A stretch of 64,000 bases of DNA from Planococcus kocurii (GTDB lineage: Bacteria; Bacillota; Bacilli; Bacillales_A; Planococcaceae), in contig NZ_CP013661.2 in NCBI RefSeq assembly GCF_001465835.2, positions 2,534,501 to 2,598,500 of the forward strand, read 5' to 3'. A program made the translations under genes and the position numbers. The notes beneath the pieces were generated by a model. That model had not been told where the DNA came from. It saw only the letters and a program-made list of their open reading frames with translations, and did no database searches. Shown here one piece after another: positions 1,356-56,623 of this stretch. Within the stretch, counting starts at the first letter, position 1. Each line of letters opens with the position of its first letter.

Positions 1356-2462
1356 ATGAATCAACTCTCGAGCTATAAAAAAATACGGCCAGTTCTTTTA
1401 TTTTTTGTTGTTGTCATGAGTGCCTGTCAAGCACCAAAAGAGGACACGCGACCAGTTCCAGAAGAAACTGAAATGGTAGAGCAAAGCCAAGCAACGATGA
1501 TCGCCCATGCTAAAACGCATGTCTACACACTGTATACCGATCTTGAACAAGGTTCGGGTTTTTTGATTAACAACAAAGGGGACATCTTGACCAATGCCCA
1601 CGTCGTTTTAGATGCATCCTACATCACCGTCAAAAATAGCGACGGTCAAGAGTTTAATGGCAACGTGATCGGTATATCTGAAACGGAGGATCTTGCCATT
1701 GTTCGTGTCGCTGAACTGGCGGGGAAAGAGCCGTTAGCGATTAAAATGGAGCCCGTGGAAATCGGTACGCCAGTCGTCGCAATCGGCAGTCCAAACGACC
1801 AAAGCAACACCGCAACAACCGGTGAAATCACAGCAACCGATCTCGATTTTTCGGATCAATACCAATACACAGACCTTTACGAAATGACCGCAGAAATCGC
1901 CCAAGGATCGAGTGGTGGGCCGCTCATCGCAGCAGATACAGGAGAAATTCTTGGCATCAACTCGATTATTCTCGAAGAAAAACCAGGATCTGGCTACAGC
2001 ATTCCGCTCTATACAGTCTGGGATCAACTAAGCGAATGGATCGAAAACCCACTGGTTACCGAAGAACAGGAAATCGTCTTGCAAGATGTTAAAGATGCTT
2101 ATTTTGCTGAAGATTTGCTGGAAAGTTTTATATCCGCCTACTACGAATTACTGCCTTATTCATTAAACGACGCTGACTCGGCTTATTACTTGTCCTACGT
2201 GTTGCCAGGCAGTCAAGCGGAGCAGGAAGCGTCCCGTTTGATTGGAGAGTATAGCGGGAAAAATCGCATGTACGATACGGTTCAACCGACAATTACGCGT
2301 ATTGAGATTAACGAAGAAAGTGCAGTAGTCACTGCTGAAGCAGAGTTTACTTACTACGAAGAAACTGGCGACAAATCAACAACTGTGTCACACGCAGGTG
2401 TTTATACGGTGGTGATTGATGAGTACGGAGATTATCAAATTACGGATATTGTGAATAAATGA
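1356..2462 (+). CDS. Membrane-anchored trypsin-like serine protease (HtrA/S1C type), lipoprotein
   Basis: The product starts with a positively charged, hydrophobic signal and the lipobox-like VMSAC, so it is probably lipidated and anchored outside the cell. Catalytic residues (numbered from the alternative GTG at 1347) are His ~84 in TNAHVV, Asp ~115 in TEDLAIV and Ser ~188 in AQGSSGGPL. The trypsin-like domain covers about residues 50-235; no PDZ domain follows. Instead a ~130-residue C-terminal region is NTF2-like or unknown. A GTG at 1347 is an alternative start; neither has a strong ribosome site. It likely degrades misfolded or surface proteins. A wobble-rich terminator follows (2465-2493). 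Confidence 0.8.
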   Translation: MNQLSSYKKIRPVLLFFVVVMSACQAPKEDTRPVPEETEMVEQSQATMIAHAKTHVYTLYTDLEQGSGFLINNKGDILTNAHVVLDASYITVKNSDGQEFNGNVIGISETEDLAIVRVAELAGKEPLAIKMEPVEIGTPVVAIGSPNDQSNTATTGEITATDLDFSDQYQYTDLYEMTAEIAQGSSGGPLIAADTGEILGINSIILEEKPGSGYSIPLYTVWDQLSEWIENPLVTEEQEIVLQDVKDAYFAEDLLESFISAYYELLPYSLNDADSAYYLSYVLPGSQAEQEASRLIGEYSGKNRMYDTVQPTITRIEINEESAVVTAEAEFTYYEETGDKSTTVSHAGVYTVVIDEYGDYQITDIVNK

Positions 2463-2464
2463 CG

Positions 2465-2493
2465 AGCAGGCTCTTGAAGGGGTCTGTTTTTTC
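2465..2493 (+). terminator. Weak terminator after the protease gene
   Basis: CAGGCTCT and GGGGTCTG can pair with several G-U pairs around a TGAA loop, followed by a run of six T. Confidence 0.5.
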
Positions 2494-2496
2494 ATA

Positions 2497-2695
2497 GGTT
2501 CTATACACCGCTTCGGTCGCTTTGGGCATGGCTCTCACACTAAGCCGAGAAAAGCACTCGTCTTAGTGCTTCGCCTAGCCCGCGACGCGCCTCAGCTAGG
2601 GAGTGGTGGATGCATAAATGCACCTATTTTTATGTGGAGTAGATGGGTGTAAGGTTCTGGAGTCGCTTGGCCGCGGTGGTGCACGCGCCTTCGCT
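2497..2695 (+). repeat. Repeat family A, copy 1
   Basis: Starts with GGTTCTATACACC and ends with the conserved GTTCTGGAGTCGCTTGGC...GGTGCACGCGCC block. It carries the core hairpin (ACACTAAG / CTTAGTGC around CCGAG...CTCG). The part between CTCAGCTAGGG and the 3' block differs from other copies. It is part of a 1.7-kb gene-free stretch (2463-4133) made almost wholly of family A and B copies. Confidence 0.8.
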
Positions 2696-2730
2696 AAGTA
2701 AGATTGAACTGGGATAATAAGTTTTTTTAG

Positions 2731-2932
2731 GGTTCTATACACCGCTTCGAGCGCTTGGGGCATGGCTCCCGCACCAAGCCGAGAAAAGCACTCGTCTTAG
2801 TGCTTCGCCTAGCCCTTGGCGCGCCTCGGCTGGTGTTGGGGGAGACTCAGCGGACATACTTTGTTTGGGTGTGGGAGTGGGGGTGAAGTTCTGGAGTCGC
2901 TTGGCGGCGGAAGTGCACGCGCCGTCGCTTTT
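2731..2932 (+). repeat. Repeat family A, copy 2
   Basis: Close to the consensus: 5' block, core hairpin with GCACCAAG / CTTAGTGC (one mismatch), CCTAGCC...GGCTGG and AGCCGAG...CTCGGCT alternative pairings, GGGGGAGACTCAGCG, then the GTGCACGCGCC 3' block. Confidence 0.85.
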
Positions 2933-2959
2933 ATTGTGAGACTGGTTTCATGTTCACTA

Positions 2960-3115
2960 GGGGCTAGACACAAATGTTCTGCAATTTGTGTCTAGCCCGT
3001 TGTCGTCCCTGGGTCGGACTCAAATGTTCCTTAATTTGTGGCCGACCCAAGGACGTGCTCCCAAGCCAAGGTTCTGCACAACACTTTCAAAAAAGAGTGC
3101 ATGTAGTTTTTGTGG
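2960..3115 (+). repeat. Repeat family B (double hairpin), copy 1
   Basis: The first hairpin has a perfect 15-bp stem (2961-2975 with 2984-2998) around the 8-base loop GTTCTGCA. The second (3005-3054) pairs GTCCCTGGGTCGG with CCGACCCAAGGAC (one mismatch) plus CAAAT/ATTTG. A conserved tail CAACACTTTCAAAAAAGAG leads into the next family A copy. Confidence 0.85.
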
Positions 3116-3318
3116 GGTTCTGGAAGTCGCCTTCGAGCGCTTGGGGCATGGCTCTCGCACTAAGCCGAGAAAAGCACTCGTCTTAGTGCTTCGCCTAGCC
3201 CTTGGCGCGCCTCGGCTGGTGTTGGGGGAGACTCAGCGGACATACTTTGTTTGGGTGTGGGAGTGGGGGTGAAGTTCTGGAGTCGCTTGGCGGCGGAAGT
3301 GCACGCGCCGTCGCTTTT
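3116..3318 (+). repeat. Repeat family A, copy 3
   Basis: Full unit. The core hairpin is perfectly complementary in its outer stem (GCACTAAG / CTTAGTGC) and inner stem (CGAG / CTCG). Confidence 0.85.
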
Positions 3319-3334
3319 AGGGTGATGATTGCCT

Positions 3335-3395
3335 GGGGCTAGACACAAATGTTCTGCACAACACTTTCAAAAAAGAGTGCATGTAGTTTTTGTGG
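3335..3395 (+). repeat. Repeat family B, internally deleted copy 2
   Basis: Identical to copy 1 at both ends, but everything between the two GTTCTGCA octamers of the full unit is missing, with one octamer left. Both hairpins are lost. Confidence 0.8.
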
Positions 3396-3599
3396 GGTTC
3401 TGGAAGTCGCCTTCGAGCGCTTGGGGCATGGCTCTCGCACTAAGCCGAGAAAAGCACTCGTCTTAGTGCTTCGCCTAGCCCGCGACGCGCCTCAGCTGGG
3501 TGTTGGGGGAGACTCAGCACAAATACTTTGTTTGGGTATGGGAGTGGGGGTGAAGTTCTGGAGTCGCTTGGCGGCGGAAGTGCACGCGCCGTCGCTTTT
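3396..3599 (+). repeat. Repeat family A, copy 4
   Basis: Full unit with GCACTAAG / CTTAGTGC perfect outer stem. The downstream CTCAGCT breaks the alternative AGCCGAG/CTCGGCT pairing. Confidence 0.85.
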
Positions 3600-3615
3600 A
3601 GGGTGATGATTGCCT

Positions 3616-3771
3616 GGGGCTAGACACAAATGTTCTGCAATTTGTGTCTAGCCCGTTGTCGTCCCTGGGTCGGACTCAAATGTTCCTTAATTTGTGGCCG
3701 ACCCAGGGACGTGCTCCCAAGCCAAGGTTCTGCACAACACTTTCAAAAAAGAATGCTTGTAGTTTTTGTGG
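3616..3771 (+). repeat. Repeat family B, copy 3
   Basis: Both hairpins intact; the second has the fully complementary GTCCCTGGGTCGG / CCGACCCAGGGAC arms. Confidence 0.85.
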
Positions 3772-4025
3772 GGTTCTGGAAGTCGCCTTCGAGCGCTTTG
3801 GGTAGAGCAAAGATGATTGCTCCTGCGCAAGCTCGTCGCAAATGAGGTCCCAGGAACACCTGGTCCCTCATTGGCTCCCGCACCAAGCCGAGAAGAGCAC
3901 TCGTCTTCGTGCTTCGCCTAGCCCTTGGCGCGCCTCAGTTGGTGTTGGGGGAGACTCAGCGAACTTACTTTTTTGGGTGTGGGGTTCTGGAATCGCTTGG
4001 CCGCGGAAGTGCACGCGCTGTCGCT
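3772..4025 (+). repeat. Repeat family A, copy 5 with extra hairpin module
   Basis: After CGCTTTGGG the usual CATGGCT is interrupted by about 70 bases that contain a GAGCAA/TTGCTC hairpin and a second hairpin (AATGAGG, CCAGG / CCTGG, CCTCATT). The consensus then resumes at TTGGCTCCCGCACC. A related insert start (TAGAGCAAA...TTGCTCC) occurs on the other strand at 28985-29010. Confidence 0.75.
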
Positions 4026-4133
4026 AGAGGTGAAGGAAGAGTTGAAGAGGTAAATTTCCACATAAAAAAAGAGGACCAGCAAAGGCCTGCTATCAGCAGA
4101 CGTTCGGGTCACTCTTTTGAGTATCTGATTGGA

Positions 4134-7656: not shown

Positions 7657-7857
7657 GGTTCTGAAAGTCGCCTTCGGACGCTTTGGGCATGGCTTTCGCA
7701 CAAAGCCGAGAAGAGCACTCGTCTTCGTGCTTCGCCTAGCCCTTGTCGCGCCTCGGCTAGGTGTTGGGGGAGACGCAGCGAACTTACTTTGTTTGGGGTA
7801 GGTAGTAGGTGTGGGGTTCTGGAGTCGCTTGGCGACGGTGGTGCACGCGCCTGCGCT
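7657..7857 (+). repeat. Repeat family A, copy 6
   Basis: Full unit; core outer stem GCACAAAG / CTTCGTGC (one mismatch), AGCCGAG / CTCGGCT and CCTAGCC / GGCTAGG alternative pairings perfect. It lies in the gene-free stretch 7555-8919; a fragment (GGGGTTCTGGAGTTGCTTAG, 7601-7620) precedes it and another (GGGGTTCTGGACATTGCC, about 7897-7914) follows it. Confidence 0.85.
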
Positions 7858-7978: not shown

Positions 7979-8183
7979 GGTTCTGAAAGTCGCCTTCGAG
8001 CGCTTGGGGCATGGCTTTCGCACAAAGCCGAGAAGAGCACTCGTCTTCGTGCTTCGCCTAGCCCTTGTCGCGCCTCGGCTAGGTGTTGGGGGAGACGCAG
8101 CGAACTTACTTTGTTTGGGGTAGGTAGTAGGTGTGGGGTTCTGGAGTCGCTTGGCGACGGTGGTGCACGCGCCTGCGCTTTTT
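7979..8183 (+). repeat. Repeat family A, copy 7
   Basis: Nearly identical to copy 6 through its core, which suggests recent duplication. Confidence 0.85.
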
Positions 8184-8218: not shown

Positions 8219-8424
8219 GGGATTTTAGAAGTCGCCTGCGGACGCTTTGGGCATGGCTCTCGCACAAAGCCGAGAAGAGCACTCATCTTTGTGCTTCGCC
8301 TAGCCCTTGACGCGCCTCGGCTGGGTGTTGGGGGAGACGCAGCGAACTTACTTTGTTTGGGTTAGGTAGTAGGTGTTGGGTTCTGGAATCGCTTGGCGGC
8401 GGTGGTGCACGCGCCGGCGCTTTT
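8219..8424 (+). repeat. Repeat family A, copy 8
   Basis: Core outer stem GCACAAAG / CTTTGTGC is perfect. The 3' block GTGGTGCACGCGCCGGCGCTTTT carries two nested palindromes (GTGCAC and GCGCCGGCGC). Confidence 0.85.
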
Positions 8425-8451
8425 ATCGTGAGGCTGGTTTCATGTTCACTT

Positions 8452-8606
8452 GGGGCTAGACACAAATGTTCTCCAATTTGTGTCTGGCCCGTTGTCGTCC
8501 CTGAGTCGGACTCAAATGTTTCTCAATTTGTGGCCGACTCAGGGACGTGCTCCCAAGCCAAGATTCTGCACAACACTTTCAAAAAAGAATACTTGTAGTT
8601 TTTTTG
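8452..8606 (+). repeat. Repeat family B, copy 4
   Basis: The second hairpin reads CTGAGTCGG / CCGACTCAG instead of CTGGGTCGG / CCGACCCAG, a compensated base-pair change. A 26-base piece of a family A 3' end follows (8607-8632). Confidence 0.8.
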
Positions 8607-14852: not shown

Positions 14853-14884
14853 TGAGAATTGTTTGGGTGCCAGGCACCAATTAC
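14853..14884 (+). repeat. Palindrome family D (GTGCCAGGCAC), copy 1
   Basis: GAGAATTGTTTGGGTGCC then AGGCACCAATTAC. Its last bases contain the TAA stop codon (minus strand, 14881-14883) of the adjacent SLH gene. An identical 30-base copy lies at 16073-16103 on the other side of that gene. Confidence 0.85.
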
Positions 14885-21487: not shown

Positions 21488-21683
21488 GCGCCGGTGCGTG
21501 CACCACCGCTGCCAAGCGACACCAGAACCCGACGCTCACTCCCAACCCAACACCAGTAGGCTCATGAAGTATCCCCCAACACCCAGCCAAGGCGCGTCAA
21601 GGGCTAGGCGAAGCACAAAGACGAGTCCACTTCTCGGCTTTGTGCGAAAGCCATGCCCAAGCGCTCGAAGGCGACTAATAGAA
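21488..21683 (-). repeat. Repeat family A, copy 9
   Basis: Read on the minus strand: core outer stem GCACAAAG / CTTTGTGC perfect, inner CGAG / CTCG perfect. With copy 10 it fills most of the 0.9-kb gap 21168-22088 between divergent transcription units. Confidence 0.85.
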
Positions 21684-21726: not shown

Positions 21727-21928
21727 AGCGTCGGCGCGTGCACCACCGCCGCCAAGCGACACCAGAACCCGACGCTCACTCCCAACCCAACACCAGTAGG
21801 CTCATGAAGTATTCCCACAACACCCAGCCAAGGCGCGTCAAGGGCTAGGCGAAGCACGAAGACGAGTGTACTTCTCGGCTTTGTGCGAAAGCCATGCCCA
21901 AGCGCCCGCAGGCGACTTCCAGAACCCC
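21727..21928 (-). repeat. Repeat family A, copy 10
   Basis: Minus-strand unit, GCACAAAG / CTTCGTGC (one mismatch). Its spacing from copy 9 (about 240 bases) equals the period of the tandem array at 29.2-30.1 kb. Confidence 0.85.
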
Positions 21929-25525: not shown

Positions 25526-25725
25526 GGTTCTGGAAGTCGCCTTCGAGCGCTTTGGGCTTGGCTCCCGCACTAAGCCAAGAAGTGCACTTGTCTTATTGCT
25601 TCGCCTAGCCCTTGTCGCGCCTTGGCTGGTGTCGGGGAGACTCAGCGAACTTACTTTGTTTGGGTTAGGTAGTGGGTGTGGGGTTCTGGAGTCGCTTGGC
25701 GTGATGGCGCACGCGCCGGCGCTTT
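25526..25725 (+). repeat. Repeat family A, copy 11
   Basis: Divergent copy. Inner stem is CAAG / CTTG where others have CGAG / CTCG, and the alternative pairing is AGCCAAG / CTTGGCT where others have AGCCGAG / CTCGGCT, both fully compensated. Outer stem GCACTAAG / CTTATTGC has one mismatch. Confidence 0.85.
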
Positions 25726-28984: not shown

Positions 28985-29037
28985 GAGCAACCGTTTTTGC
29001 TCTACCCAAAGCGATCGAAGGCGACATCTAGAACCCC
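28985..29037 (-). repeat. Repeat family A fragment with the variant module
   Basis: Minus-strand 5' part only: GTCGCCTTCGATCGCTTTGGG followed by TAGAGCAAAAACGGTTGCTCC, the same variant seen in copy 5. Confidence 0.7.
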
Positions 29038-29191
29038 ACAAAAACTACAAGTACTCTCTTTTGAAAGTGTTGTGCAGAACCTTGGCTTGGGAACACGTCC
29101 CTGGGTCGGCCACAAATTAAGGAACATTTGAGTCCGACCCAGGGACGACAACGGGCCAGCCACAAATTGAAGAACATTTGTGTCTAGCCCC
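29038..29191 (-). repeat. Repeat family B, copy 6
   Basis: Minus-strand copy with both hairpins; the first stem has CTAGACAC paired with GTGGCTGG through wobbles, the second is perfect. Confidence 0.8.
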
Positions 29192-29220
29192 AAGTGAACA
29201 TGAAACCAGCCTCACGATAA

Positions 29221-29419
29221 AAGCGCCGGCGCGTGCACCACCGCCGCCAAGCGACACCAGAACCCCACACCCACTACTCCCACAAAAAAATATGTTCACG
29301 GACTACCTCAACAACATCAGCCAAGGCGCGACAGGGACTAGGCGAAGCAATAAGACGAGTGTACTTCTCGGCTTATTGCGAGAGCCATGCCCAAGCGTCC
29401 GAAGGCGACTAATAGAACG
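29221..29419 (-). repeat. Repeat family A, copy 12 (tandem array)
   Basis: Core outer stem GCAATAAG / CTTATTGC, a third fully compensated allele. First of four copies in tandem with a 241-base period that fill the 1.4-kb gap 28838-30244. Confidence 0.9.
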
Positions 29420-29461
29420 TCTCAAAAACGCCTCCACCAATCCCGAATCTGAACACAAAAA

Positions 29462-29660
29462 AAGCGCCGGCGCGTGCACCACCGCCGCCAAGCGACACCA
29501 GAACCCCACACCCACTACTCCCACAAAAAAATATGTTCACGGACTACCTCAACAACATCAGCCAAGGCGCGACAGGGACTAGGCGAAGCAATAAGACGAG
29601 TGTACTTCTCGGCTTATTGCGAGAGCCATGCCCAAGCGTCCGAAGGCGACTAATAGAACG
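29462..29660 (-). repeat. Repeat family A, copy 13 (tandem array)
   Basis: Almost identical to copy 12; unit plus linker repeats at exactly 241 bases. Confidence 0.9.
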
Positions 29661-29702
29661 TCTCAAAAACGCCTCCACCAATCCCGAATCTGAACACAAA
29701 AA

Positions 29703-29901
29703 AAGCGCCGGCGCGTGCACCACCGCCGCCAAGCGACACCAGAACCCCACACCCACTACTCCCACAAAAAAATATGTTCACGGACTACCTCAACAACATC
29801 AGCCAAGGCGCGACAGGGACTAGGCGAAGCAATAAGACGAGTGTACTTCTCGGCTTAGTGCGAGAGCCATGCCCAAGCATCCGAAGGCGACTAATAGAAC
29901 G
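29703..29901 (-). repeat. Repeat family A, copy 14 (tandem array)
   Basis: As copies 12-13 but with GCACTAAG opposite CTTATTGC, a one-mismatch intermediate. Confidence 0.9.
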
Positions 29902-29943
29902 TCTCAAAAACGCCTCCACCAATCCCGAATCTGAACACAAAAA

Positions 29944-30142
29944 AAGCGCCGGCGCGTGCACCACCGCCGCCAAGCGACACCAGAACCCACACCTACTACC
30001 CCCACAAAAAAAGTATGTTCGTTGAAATCCCCCACACCACCAGCCGAGGCGCGACAGGGGCTAGGCGAAGCACGAAGACGAGTGCTCTTCTCGGCTTTGT
30101 GCGGGAGCCAAGCCCAAAGCGCCCGAAGGCGACACCAGAACC
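29944..30142 (-). repeat. Repeat family A, copy 15
   Basis: End of the array; diverged from copies 12-14 and closer to copies 6-7 (GCACAAAG / CTTCGTGC). Confidence 0.85.
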
Positions 30143-30244
30143 CTACCAAATTTACCACAACAACCCTCATCAGCTTATAACCTACACAATCCCCAACCAC
30201 AACAAAAAAAGCGCAATCCCACAACAGGACCACGCTCACCAACC

Positions 30245-48333: not shown

Positions 48334-48785
48334 GGTTCTTTCCAACGTTAGTTGAATTTGCGGGCTTCTAGTAATAGAAGCTTATTTCGTAGAAGAGCGA
48401 AACTATTGCGGCCATACATGATTCGCTTGATGGTTTTCAACTTATTGACACTGCCCTCAGCTAATCCGTTACTATAGGGAAGTGTACAGGCATTTTCAAC
48501 TGCCTTGATATCTTTTTTCATTCCATTTAGGAAACTTTTCAATTCAGCTAATTCTAGGCTTTCCGTCTCTGCAATCCATGTATGGAGGATCTCTTTCTTA
48601 CCTGATTTAAGAATCTTTTTGAAATCCCAAATTAGATCGAGTAATGTACCGATCAATGGATACTGCTGAATACTATTTTCAACTTGTTCAAAAGAAATAT
48701 CTTTCACTTTGTCAAGTGGCTTGTAGAGTAACTTTATTAGCCACTTTCTCTCAATAACCTCTGTGGCATCAGTAGAAATCAAAAT
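48334..48785 (-). pseudogene. ISL3-family transposase, C-terminal remnant
   Basis: The minus-strand product (stop at 48348) matches the C-terminal third of ISL3 transposases, with the signature YSNGLAEGSVNKLKTIKR and MYGRNSFALLR. The N-terminal two-thirds are missing; the break coincides with the start of repeat C copy 2. The outer end begins with GGTTCTTT at 48334, typical of ISL3 termini. Confidence 0.82.
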
Positions 48786-53273: not shown

Positions 53274-53879
53274 CTACATCACCGGCGGCTCCATATCCTC
53301 CACATGCGGATCTTCTTCTGCGTTCTGCGCATAAGTCAGGCAGTACATACAATAGGCTGTATTGTTTTTCTCGAACGGCTCCGGCAGCAATCCCTTCAAC
53401 AGCTCACGGTCTAAAAAAGCCGGAGCCGGAAGCGACTCGTCCCAATACAATGGAAACGAACTATATGGATACATCTCCAATCGCTCCACCATCGGCTTTT
53501 TGGTTTGAATCGGATTGCGGTGGATATAACTACTGACCGTGAGAAGGCCAAGACGCGAATCGACTTCTTTCGCAAAATAGCGCTTTTGGTAAATGCGTCC
53601 AATGTGGCGATAACGCTTGGCATAGGACATGGAATACCGGCGATTGACCAGACCCATGATTTTATAGAGAGGATCATGCTCGGCTTTGATCAAAATGTGA
53701 TAATGATTCGTCATAAAACAATAAGCCAGAATCTTAAACGGGTAATCTACATAAATGTGCTGAAAGGCGCGTTTCAGTTCGAACATGTCTTCCTTCGTTT
53801 TAAAAATCGGTTGCCGGTTATTGCCGCGCATGATGACGTGGTAATAAGAATGAGGATTAAATTCTCGTTTTCGTGTCAT
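53274..53879 (-). CDS. REP-associated tyrosine transposase (RAYT, Y1 family)
   Basis: 201 aa with the IS200-like fold: HUH motif in TNHYHILIKA (~58-67), YHVIMRGNN start (~13-21), and the catalytic Tyr region YMHRNP-like SYIHRNP (~117-123). RAYTs are single-copy transposases that act on short hairpin repeats. It starts 3 bases after comM/yifB on the same strand. No IS200-type ends are obvious, as usual for RAYTs. Confidence 0.88.
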   Translation of the reverse strand: MTRKREFNPHSYYHVIMRGNNRQPIFKTKEDMFELKRAFQHIYVDYPFKILAYCFMTNHYHILIKAEHDPLYKIMGLVNRRYSMSYAKRYRHIGRIYQKRYFAKEVDSRLGLLTVSSYIHRNPIQTKKPMVERLEMYPYSSFPLYWDESLPAPAFLDRELLKGLLPEPFEKNNTAYCMYCLTYAQNAEEDPHVEDMEPPVM

Positions 53880-53882
53880 GAC

Positions 53883-55388
53883 TCACCTCATCAGCGAACT
53901 GTGGGTGCGCGAAGCACTGATTTTCCATTGCAGCGCTTCATCGACCGCTGTGTCTGTGACCTGATCATCGCCTGCGACATCCGAAATCGTCCGCGCCAGC
54001 CGCAAAATTTTTATCGTGGAGCGGCTGCTCAGCTTTTCCTGGAAACTGACCGTTTCGATTTTTGCCAGTTGGGCAGAGGTGAAATGGGTCTTTTCCTCAA
54101 ACAGCTTAATCGGCACAATGGCATTCGTGTAATTGGCCCCGTAGCGGATTCGCTGCCGGTCGCGTGCAGCCGCTGTCAGCTCCCTCAGTTCTTCGGACGT
54201 AGTAGCGGTTGACTGCGCCAACACGCCTTGGTTTTTCATCTCCAGCACAAAATCCACCCGATCGATGATGGGGCCGGTGATTTTCTGCATGTACTTCAAC
54301 CGTACTTTGTCCCCGCAGGTGCAATACTTTTCGTGAGAGCCGTAATAACCGCACGGACATGGATTTGTCGCGGCAATCAAGTTGATGGTTGCCGGAAACT
54401 GGTCGGAGCCTTCGACGCGGTTGACCACAGCGAAGCCCGATTCCAGAGGCTGACGCAACGTATCAATAACGCGCCGCGGAAAATGGCCCAGCTCATCCAG
54501 GAACAAGACGCCGCGATGCGCCAGTGATATTTCGCCCGGCTTTGGATAGCGCCCGCCGCCGATAATGGCACCTTCCGAAGAAGAATGGTGCGGACTGCGA
54601 AACGGTGGACGTTCGGACAGGGATCGCGCCTGCTTGGCCATCTGGTAGATACTGTAGACTTCCAGGATTTCGTCATGCGCCAAATCGGGCAGAATCGTAT
54701 GGAAGGCATTCGCCAGCAGACTTTTGCCGCAGCCCGGCGGACCGCTCATCAGCACGTGGTGACCACCAGCTGCAGCAAGCAGCAATGCGCGTTTCGCTTC
54801 TTCGTGGCCGCGAATGGCGGAGAAACACACATGCGGGATCTTTTCGGTGTCTTCGTAGAGAATTTCGGGTTGCAAAAGGGTAAGGTCGTCGTCAAAAAGG
54901 GAAGTCTTTCCGGCTAAGTGGGAAAGCAGAGAGGGCATATCCGGCATACGGATCAATTCGACATCCGCAGCTTGCGCAAAAAGGGAAATTTCAATTGGTG
55001 GAATATAGATGCGTTTAAAGCCCAGCAAGATCGCCTGGTGGATGGTGGGAATCATGCTGTGGAACGTCGTCAGTTCACCGTTCAAGGTCAGCGCAGCAAT
55101 AAAGCAGGTCTTGTCCGGTATCTCCAACGGTTTTTTCGCCATCGCCTGCAACACCGCGAGCAGCATCGCTGCGTCATAAGAAGTGCCTTGCTTTTTGACA
55201 TCCGCAGGCGACAGGTGGATAGTGATTTTCTTCATATCGATGTCTTCTTTCAGCGCGTGAAGGCAATTCAGAATCCGATCCCGCGACTCCTTGATCGACA
55301 CATCCGGCAAGCCGATGATGATGCATTGTTCTTTGTCTTCTCGCACGGTCGCCTCGACCCGGATCACTTGGCCCGAGAGCCCGCTCAT
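53883..55388 (-). CDS. comM: ComM/YifB-family AAA+ ATPase
   Basis: About 501 aa from the ATG: N-terminal ChlI/Lon-S5-like domain (IGLPDVSIKESRDRI), Mg-chelatase-type AAA core with Walker A GPPGCGKSLLA (~217-227), Walker B GVLFLDELG (~292) and the C-rich ATNPCPCGYYG, C-terminal Mg_chelatase_C. ComM is a hexameric helicase promoting branch migration in natural transformation. Family members usually begin with an extra ~14 residues; the in-frame sequence upstream (ISNYIYSVG) supplies them but without an ATG/GTG/TTG, see findings. GC-richer than its surroundings. Confidence 0.9.
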   Translation of the reverse strand: MSGLSGQVIRVEATVREDKEQCIIIGLPDVSIKESRDRILNCLHALKEDIDMKKITIHLSPADVKKQGTSYDAAMLLAVLQAMAKKPLEIPDKTCFIAALTLNGELTTFHSMIPTIHQAILLGFKRIYIPPIEISLFAQAADVELIRMPDMPSLLSHLAGKTSLFDDDLTLLQPEILYEDTEKIPHVCFSAIRGHEEAKRALLLAAAGGHHVLMSGPPGCGKSLLANAFHTILPDLAHDEILEVYSIYQMAKQARSLSERPPFRSPHHSSSEGAIIGGGRYPKPGEISLAHRGVLFLDELGHFPRRVIDTLRQPLESGFAVVNRVEGSDQFPATINLIAATNPCPCGYYGSHEKYCTCGDKVRLKYMQKITGPIIDRVDFVLEMKNQGVLAQSTATTSEELRELTAAARDRQRIRYGANYTNAIVPIKLFEEKTHFTSAQLAKIETVSFQEKLSSRSTIKILRLARTISDVAGDDQVTDTAVDEALQWKISASRTHSSLMR

Positions 55389-55502
55389 GCCGACACTGTA
55401 GATATAGTTTGATATAAAAATCCCTCTTTTCTATTTAATTTGGTTGTTCCTTTTCATTGTAGGGGATGTGTCTAATATTGTCGAAATATTTCTTTAACTT
55501 GA

Positions 55503-56087
55503 ATGAGTATAGATGGTGCTTCCGTATATCCATCAGATGGAGGAGAAATACTAATCGGAATTGAAGATGACGGTACAGTGGTTGGCTTGACAAACGCCCA
55601 AAAAGACGTGGAAACCGTCAGCAATATCTTGAGGGACAGCATAAAGCCGGATATTTTGGTGCATAGCTCCGCTGAAATCTTGGTCATTGATGGCAAGGAA
55701 GTAGTGAAAATTGAAATTACACGCGGGTCGAGAAGACCTTATCATCTTGGAAGTAAAGGGATGAAGCCTTCCAGTGTTTTTGTTCGGCACGGCACATCAG
55801 CCAGTGCGGCATCAGATGAAGCGATTCGTCAAATGATCATAGTGTCAGATGGTACTCAATATGAGAACATGCGATGCCTCAATCAATCCTTAACTTTTCA
55901 TGAAACGACTCAATTGTTTAAAGCTGAAGGGCTGGCCTTTGGCGCAATACAGCAAAGATCACTGGGAATCATTAATTCTGATAATTATTATACAAACTTG
56001 GGACAGCTGTTGTCGGAGCAGTACGAACACTCCATTAAAGCCGCTCGCTATAAAGGGATGACCAAGTTGGATTTTCAGGATCGATAG
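55503..56087 (+). pseudogene. AlbA_2/Schlafen-type ATP-binding protein fragment
   Basis: Contains the AlbA_2 core SDGGEILIGIEDDGTVVG and IKIEITRGSRRPYH-like strand (residues ~12-75). Full proteins start earlier and run to 400-500 aa; both ends are missing here. Its 3' end joins, in opposite orientation, a piece of a second comM copy at 56088. Confidence 0.75.
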
Positions 56088-56460
56088 GGCTTGGTGGATC
56101 GTTGGGATCTTACTGTGAAACGTCGTCAGTTCACCATTCAACGTCAATGCGGCGATAAAGCAAGTCTTCTCAGGGATGTCCAACGGCTTTTTCGTCATCG
56201 CTTGCAAAACGGCTAGTAGCATCGCCGCGTCGTACAAAGTCCCTTGCTTTTCACATCGGCAGGGGACAAGTGAATGGTGATCGATGTCTTTTTTGACTGC
56301 GTGAAGGCAATTCAGGATCCGCTCCCGCGACTCCTTGATCGACACATCGGGCAAGCCGATGATGATGTATTGTTCTTTTTCTTCTTGCACGGTCGCCTCG
56401 ACCCAGATCACTTGGCCGGAGAGGCCGCTCATGCCGACACTGTAGATATAGTTACTTATA
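56075..56460 (-). pseudogene. Second comM/yifB copy, N-terminal fragment
   Basis: The minus strand encodes ~125 residues closely matching the start of the intact ComM (SVGMSGLSGQVIWVEATV, IIGLPDVSIKESRERILN, AALTLNGELTTFHSKIPTIHQA). It has an internal disruption (DHHSLVPCRCEKQGT versus MKKITIHLSPADVKKQGT) and stops at the AlbA_2 fragment. It retains the same ATG-less upstream extension (ISNYIYSVG). Confidence 0.85.
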
Positions 56461-56623
56461 AGAATCCCTCTTTTTTTTGAAATAGTTGCATACCGGTTCA
56501 GTATAAGGGGAGATAGTTGTCTAAATAATCTGGAATTTAGAAAGGGGCTCCACAACAATCCATTCCTTTATCCAGAAAATATGCTATTCTGAAATGAACA
56601 TAGAAGAAAATGAGGTGCGTTGC

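Follow-up and report, generated by a model that had tools for sequence, protein, structure and literature searches.

A family of intergenic hairpin repeats with compensated stem changes in Planococcus and related genera

Family A is an interspersed, non-coding repeat that forms a hairpin and occurs in Planococcus and some related genera; we encountered it in a 64-kb (64,000-nucleotide) stretch of Planococcus kocurii DNA that we refer to as the window. It is a real hairpin family, present in no library that we searched and in all 46 Planococcus genomes examined. Our best reading is that it constitutes a new REP/BIME/ERIC-like hairpin family that acts as single-stranded DNA (ssDNA) or, less likely, as RNA. 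Dozens of hairpin alleles per genome, together with a strand signature and orthologous copies, make the DNA-versus-RNA question testable. The repeats also mark a surface-glycan locus, which they may help to reshuffle, and the covariance models R1 or R2 could enter a repeat or RNA library.

Results

The core pattern of family A (35 letters, 30 of them specified, with at most three mismatches) matched the window 15 times and gave no matches in 100 shuffles. Covariance model R1 recovered the same 15 copies, 14 complete and one with its 5′ arm replaced, which bears out both the number and the placement of the roughly 15 intergenic copies reported in the initial annotation of this DNA. Strands are given here in the orientation of that annotation (the reader's strand); the favoured fold lies on the opposite strand in every copy. 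Five copies lie at 2.5–3.9 kb (copies 1–5, all +: 2507..2597, R1 score 104.1 bits; 2741..2831, 103.3 bits; 3126..3217, 105.6 bits; 3406..3497, 103.7 bits; 3855..3940, 53.3 bits), forming an array at 2497..4026 (+) between a trypsin-like and an NlpC/P60 gene. Three more are found at 7.7–8.3 kb (copies 6–8, all +: 7667..7758, 103.4 bits; 7989..8080, 100.8 bits; 8231..8322, 100 bits), two at 21.6–21.9 kb (copies 9 and 10, both −: 21585..21675, 95.8 bits; 21826..21916, 94.2 bits), one at 25.5 kb (copy 11, +: 25536..25627, 97.9 bits) and four at 29.3–30.1 kb (copies 12–15, all −: 29319..29409, 97.9 bits; 29560..29650, 97.9 bits; 29801..29891, 91 bits; 30042..30133, 100.8 bits). Fourteen copies thus score 91–106 bits, and the 53 bits of the copy at 3855–3940 are explained by the exchange of its 5′ arm for other sequence. 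Three additional weak R1 matches (18–24 bits) fall on the strand opposite to copies listed above. All window copies are intergenic with respect to genes having Pfam matches.

The repeating unit measures about 241 bp in the regular arrays of the window, and its linker differs from species to species. Four such units at 241 bp spacing make up a tandem array at 29213..30229 (−, repeat family D2), where units 2 and 3 are 99% identical to unit 1 and unit 4 is 62% identical. The unit also contains a second, shorter hairpin (for example 2880..2930, +, repeat family D10), the ends of which resemble, by eye, the core ends with the middle missing. A separate double-hairpin family (D6 and inverted partners) adjoins the arrays at 2950–3090, 3626–3760, 8440–8600 and 29030–29200.

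Searches of the whole window against Rfam 15 yielded no matches, and the region 2400–4100 gave only weak miRNA matches far below gathering. Of six chance ORFs that overlap copies and were compared to Pfam, none matched at E ≤ 0.1, and the three compared to NCBIfam showed no match at E ≤ 0.01. Given this lack of domain matches, we rejected a coding gene or insertion sequence (IS) remnant as the origin of the repeat. Decayed pieces of this sort, which the initial annotation had named as one finding that would count against it, are not borne out by the six ORFs without a Pfam match. Family A is not described in the parts searched of the literature, including PMC4666352, PMC2267715, PMC6006769 and PMC3733652, and within Rfam 15 and those parts the earlier view that it fits no named family stands. 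Carriage on plasmids or phages was rejected on zero matches to one 205-nt unit (E ≤ 1e-5) in both the plasmid and the phage collection.

The 92-nt core folds into a hairpin built of a terminal stem, the stems GGGC/GCCC and GGC/GCC, and an upper stem closed by a loop of usually 7 nt. Within the upper stem, an invariant AAG/CTT is combined with variable pairs. The outer and inner stems that had been taken as the core represent the upper part of this hairpin, to which the GGGC/GCCC, GGC/GCC and basal stems belong as well. All stem alleles named in the initial annotation were recovered, including the CAAG/CTTG inner stem of copy 11 at 25.5 kb.

The stems of the core change fast, yet these changes are compensated. 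RNAalifold alone recovered the hairpin from 47 cores (alignment A1, from which 4 of 51 distinct cores were dropped), and both partners had changed at 9 of its 20 pairs. Covariation counts for the 47 cores, set against shuffles and slid partners, agreed in four measures out of five; for the remaining one (further pair types), 41 of 500 shuffles attained the same value. In a larger alignment made by sequence only (A5, 96 copies, 44 of them from the single genome G009), 94.9% of stem cells were paired. Double changes filled 320 cells compared to 100 in shuffles and were found at 16 of 25 pairs, and the covariation score was 0.377 versus 0.145 for shuffled sequences. Helices 3 and 4 were paired in 99.0% and 98.5% of cells in these 96 sequences. 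The basal stem was weaker (74.9% of cells paired), partly because its register differs among subfamilies. To arrive at A5, sequences longer than 96 nt and near-duplicates were taken out (212 distinct sequences reduced to 107), then one more (106) and ten by hand (96); the ten were mostly degenerate or badly aligned and included the window copy at 3855, and removing degenerate rows by hand favours structure. With some exceptions, the sequence-only alignments of 47 and 96 copies and the orthologous copies described below sustain the earlier proposal that the paired changes reflect selection for a folded molecule. Overall, the fold of family A seems to matter, as paired mutations keep mainly one strand foldable.

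The strand in question is the reverse complement of the one read in the initial annotation. Its fold was the more stable one in 80 of 93 distinct copies, drawn from an alignment (A2) of the best 150 of 217 matches in which 57 of 150 rows were duplicates. Mean energy favoured this strand in 27 of 32 genomes, the reader's strand being slightly better in 5 of 32, and the consensus fold of 107 sequences reached −29.1 kcal/mol on the favoured strand versus −23.0 kcal/mol. Mismatches were likewise unequal. Counted once per genome, pair and type, A.C exceeded G.T mismatches on the reader's strand by 30:8 (p = 5e-4, uncorrected for kinship), A.C mismatches there being G.U-like on the favoured strand. 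Raw mismatch cells stood at 40:9 in A2 (best 150 of 217 matches) and upper-stem mismatch cells at 36:6 in A5, where a sign test per column pair gave 8:2 (p = 0.11, kinship uncorrected). Finally, the 50 + 50 nt flanking the fold on the favoured strand held less G than C in 84 of 96 copies and more in 11. At 200–300 nt this G shortage was gone in a mixed set (22:21), weak in the window genome (6:2) and persistent in G009 (33:11).

A single strand, whether RNA or ssDNA, fits these three strand asymmetries better than a two-stranded cruciform. The asymmetry speaks against a cruciform, in which the two strands would be equally exposed and no strand should stand out, and we rejected it as the main reading. 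The original suggestion of a folded RNA or a DNA cruciform therefore survives as far as a single folded strand is concerned, and its cruciform half does not.

The initial annotation had envisaged a covariance model run across relatives; model R1, once built, found the core in 46 of 46 Planococcus genomes searched, with 2 to at least 92 matches per genome, the highest counts being minimum values (up to 93 candidates were scored per genome). The window genome held 33 R1 matches at E ≤ 0.001, 18 of them outside the window; with the other 15 inside, the window is a hot spot. Among genomes drawn from the family, R1 matched 54 of 200 and 5 of 19 genera. With the wider model R2, a search of 261 genomes of the order gave matches at E ≤ 1e-4 in 95. 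These, too, fall into 5 of 19 genera, each belonging to the family of the window genome; E-values of both models are rough. An exact 34-base pattern proved too strict, returning one record, from Planococcus chinensis, in a scan of named genomes.

Orientation to flanking genes was near random: 85 loci, with arrays not collapsed, were distributed as 30 (++), 26 (−−), 19 (+−) and 10 (−+), and the 43 arrays of G009 comprised 13 sense, 11 antisense, 14 convergent and 5 divergent. The region 2400–4130 of the window contained no promoter-like site and one terminator-like site, versus 2.3 expected. Upstream of the folded strand, the promoter scores of 96 copies did not exceed those of shuffled sequence (6.17 versus 6.40), and a T5 run within 30 nt downstream of the folded strand was present in 3 copies only. 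With neither signal enriched in 2400–4130 or at the 96 copies, an own promoter or terminator was rejected.

Replication direction was considered with ter taken as opposite dnaA, itself located from the contig start or by search. The folded strand lay on the lagging-strand template at 29 of 41 loci in G009, 22 of 31 in G022 and 29 of 41 in G019 (80 of 113 in total). These three genomes are related and may share copies, and they are thus not three independent tests. The bias was absent in G014 (13 of 28), leaned the other way in G000 (5 of 18) and did not appear among the loci listed for five more genomes (2 of 9, 5 of 13, 5 of 9, 2 of 5 and 2 of 3). A general lagging-strand bias was therefore rejected, and the signal belongs to one clade at most.

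By Pfam matches, the window carries a surface locus encoding LCP, glycosyltransferases, an epimerase, patatin, NlpC/P60, trypsin-like, subtilase and SLH proteins, which is syntenic in large part in G012, G014, G028, G030 and G031. Among the six species, chosen for showing clusters, the LCP|GT4 gap held copies in 6 of 6, in one orientation, and the NlpC|trypsin gap in 5 of 6 (4 of 5 besides that of the window). Nearest relatives outside the own array were determined for 67 copies, 5 of 72 having no assigned gap. For 42 of the 67 the relative sat in the same species but in a different gap, for 18 it came from a different gap of another species, and for 7 from the corresponding gap of another species; without G012 (44 copies), the corresponding numbers were 19, 18 and 7. 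The gaps thus look old as sites of the repeat, but the sequence of a copy does not follow its gap.

Three solitary loci (fadA|acyl-CoA dehydrogenase, L107 and L106) have orthologous copies that keep the upper hairpin while their stem letters differ. Exceptions were seen at L107, where the inner stem is broken in G002, the G015 copy folds better on the opposite strand and the lower half refolds in prediction in G000, and at fadA, where the G035 copy has a different inner stem. The fadA gap of G031, G002 and G028 holds another long-hairpin family, and that of G030 is without either core. At L203, L204 and L205 (the fadA gap) and in the L057 flanks, family A is accompanied or supplanted in the same gap by two other long-hairpin repeat families, one with CAGGCGGACGCTTTCC and one with GGAGACTCCCGCGGGATAGCG. 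No clean empty site was found at the two loci where G030 is without a copy; the gaps look like deletions, and no movement was seen.

Discussion

We put the probability at roughly 0.5 that family A is a passenger whose hairpin is read on one strand by a putative trans-acting factor, with ssDNA more likely than RNA as the form that is read. Like REP/BIME/MITE repeats, it would multiply as a passenger. The putative factor would recognise the hairpin of one strand whenever that strand is single, and the structure may be kept for this reason. The single-stranded state would most likely be ssDNA at replication or repair and less likely RNA. Tandem growth, along with gene conversion among copies, could keep the copies of one genome alike. 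Near-random orientation and the lack of promoter enrichment suit a DNA element. Counting against the passenger reading are the deletion-like gaps of G030, the limits of the lagging-strand bias and the upkeep of the fold at one place across species, which exceeds what a passenger requires.

For REP hairpins, roles at the DNA level and at the RNA level have each been put forward. In PMC3733652, REPs are 20–40 bp imperfect palindromes with a GTAG or CGTC tag, predominantly in Proteobacteria. REP/BIME repeats as portrayed there and family A are alike in being mostly intergenic hairpins of many copies, in forming clusters or mosaics and in being rarer between divergent genes (PMC3733652). In contrast to REPs so defined, family A has a 92-nt core and conserves neither GTAG nor CGTC at the core ends, and it flanks no RAYT gene examined. 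It has the BIME-like features of hairpin clusters with linkers and a second hairpin (by eye), intergenic position and many copies. As regards a MITE, the observations are a basal stem that pairs the ends in 74.9% of cells, no clean empty site and no parent transposase found. The repeats bcr1, ERIC, NEMIS and RUP are short, non-coding, foldable, situated beside genes and limited to a species group. By description, family A is like them in each of these respects. These four, bcr1 being from the Bacillus cereus group, are named as MITE-type repeats in PMC3733652. We could show no target duplication for family A. Integron attC sites, too, act as one folded strand, keep their structure while the sequence varies and occur in arrays. 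Family A would resemble attC in these three respects, and its units of about 150–250 bp seem too short for gene cassettes.

Foremost among the alternatives is a structured RNA element, which we regard as possible and rather doubtful. Here the hairpin would work in transcripts, affecting mRNA stability, termination or protein binding, by way of transcription reaching the gap. Compensated change at orthologous places is consistent with this, as are the one-sided excess of G.U-like wobble and the lower RNA energy of that strand, the purine-rich internal loops and conserved unpaired letters of the favoured strand (by eye), and G-poor flanks, which would stay open. However, near-random orientation to neighbouring genes and the absence of promoter or terminator enrichment at the copies lower the odds of a conventional RNA gene or UTR element, and the tandem arrays and the lack of an Rfam match also argue against it.

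A further reading, which we judge unlikely, is that family A represents a new class of site-keeping single-strand elements and more than transposon relics. As folded ssDNA or RNA, the hairpins would then serve a function at set positions between genes, above all along the surface-glycan and S-layer locus, with tandem amplification and conversion continually rewriting their letters.

Mobilisation of a REP-like element by a RAYT/Y1 transposase of the same genome appears quite improbable and is kept weakly. Of the 46 genomes, 29 have Y1_Tnp matches, some of which lie in the surface region described above, and 28 have an intact Y1 gene. Copy number is lower in genomes lacking an intact Y1 gene, and all six genomes with six or fewer R1 matches are among these (Fisher p = 0.002, Mann-Whitney p = 0.014, uncorrected for descent); one of these six assemblies comprises 350 contigs, and the Y1 of G006, a fragment with a stop, was counted as not intact. 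The clade-limited lagging-strand bias would also suit a RAYT. Yet no copy flanks a Y1 gene in the 23 examined of 39 Y1 matches listed, 18 of 20 Y1 regions are without a copy at E ≤ 0.1, and the nearest copy is more than 3.5 kb away in the other two and more than 20 kb from the window's own Y1 gene. Genomes without a Y1 match hold up to at least 92 copies (G025), and the palindrome 170 bp from one Y1 gene of the window genome belongs to another family. As for the tag, 15 of 96 copies carry GTAG in the 12 nt at the hairpin 5′ end of the reader's strand (GTGG in 1, CGTC in 1), compared to 5 of 96 in one control stretch and 2 in another. It sits on the non-favoured strand, however, the favoured strand having no tag and GTAG in 0 of 96; found on a minority of copies, GTAG is therefore not a conserved tag.

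Slightly less probable still are neutral relics of an old transposon whose pairing is kept solely by gene-conversion overwriting among copies: nearest relatives in another gap of the same species (42 of 67) rather than in the same gap of another species (7 of 67) fit overwriting, but solitary orthologous copies carry private paired changes, and the upper stems are about 99% paired across very different alleles (10 of 106 copies having been removed by hand). Reverse transcription of a retro-copied RNA element was rejected, RVT_1 being present in 11 of 46 carrier genomes only.

Several other elements of the window genome deserve mention. The RAYT-like gene at 53274–53879 (−) scores 67.8 bits against NF047646 (cut-off 80) and lies above the Pfam cut-off for Y1_Tnp. 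Repeats of 100–197 nt (D5, D9) surround it at 48781, 51905, 52097, 53070 and 60939 and are possibly its own. The palindrome GGGTGCC / GGCACC (L150, 13289–13317) is situated about 170 bp from the second Y1 gene of this genome; similar palindromes (D17) at 14853, 16072 and 21371 of the window are perhaps repeats of that second Y1 transposase. At 55033–56483, the window contains two duplicated stretches about 1 kb apart (D15, 90%; D16, 82%).
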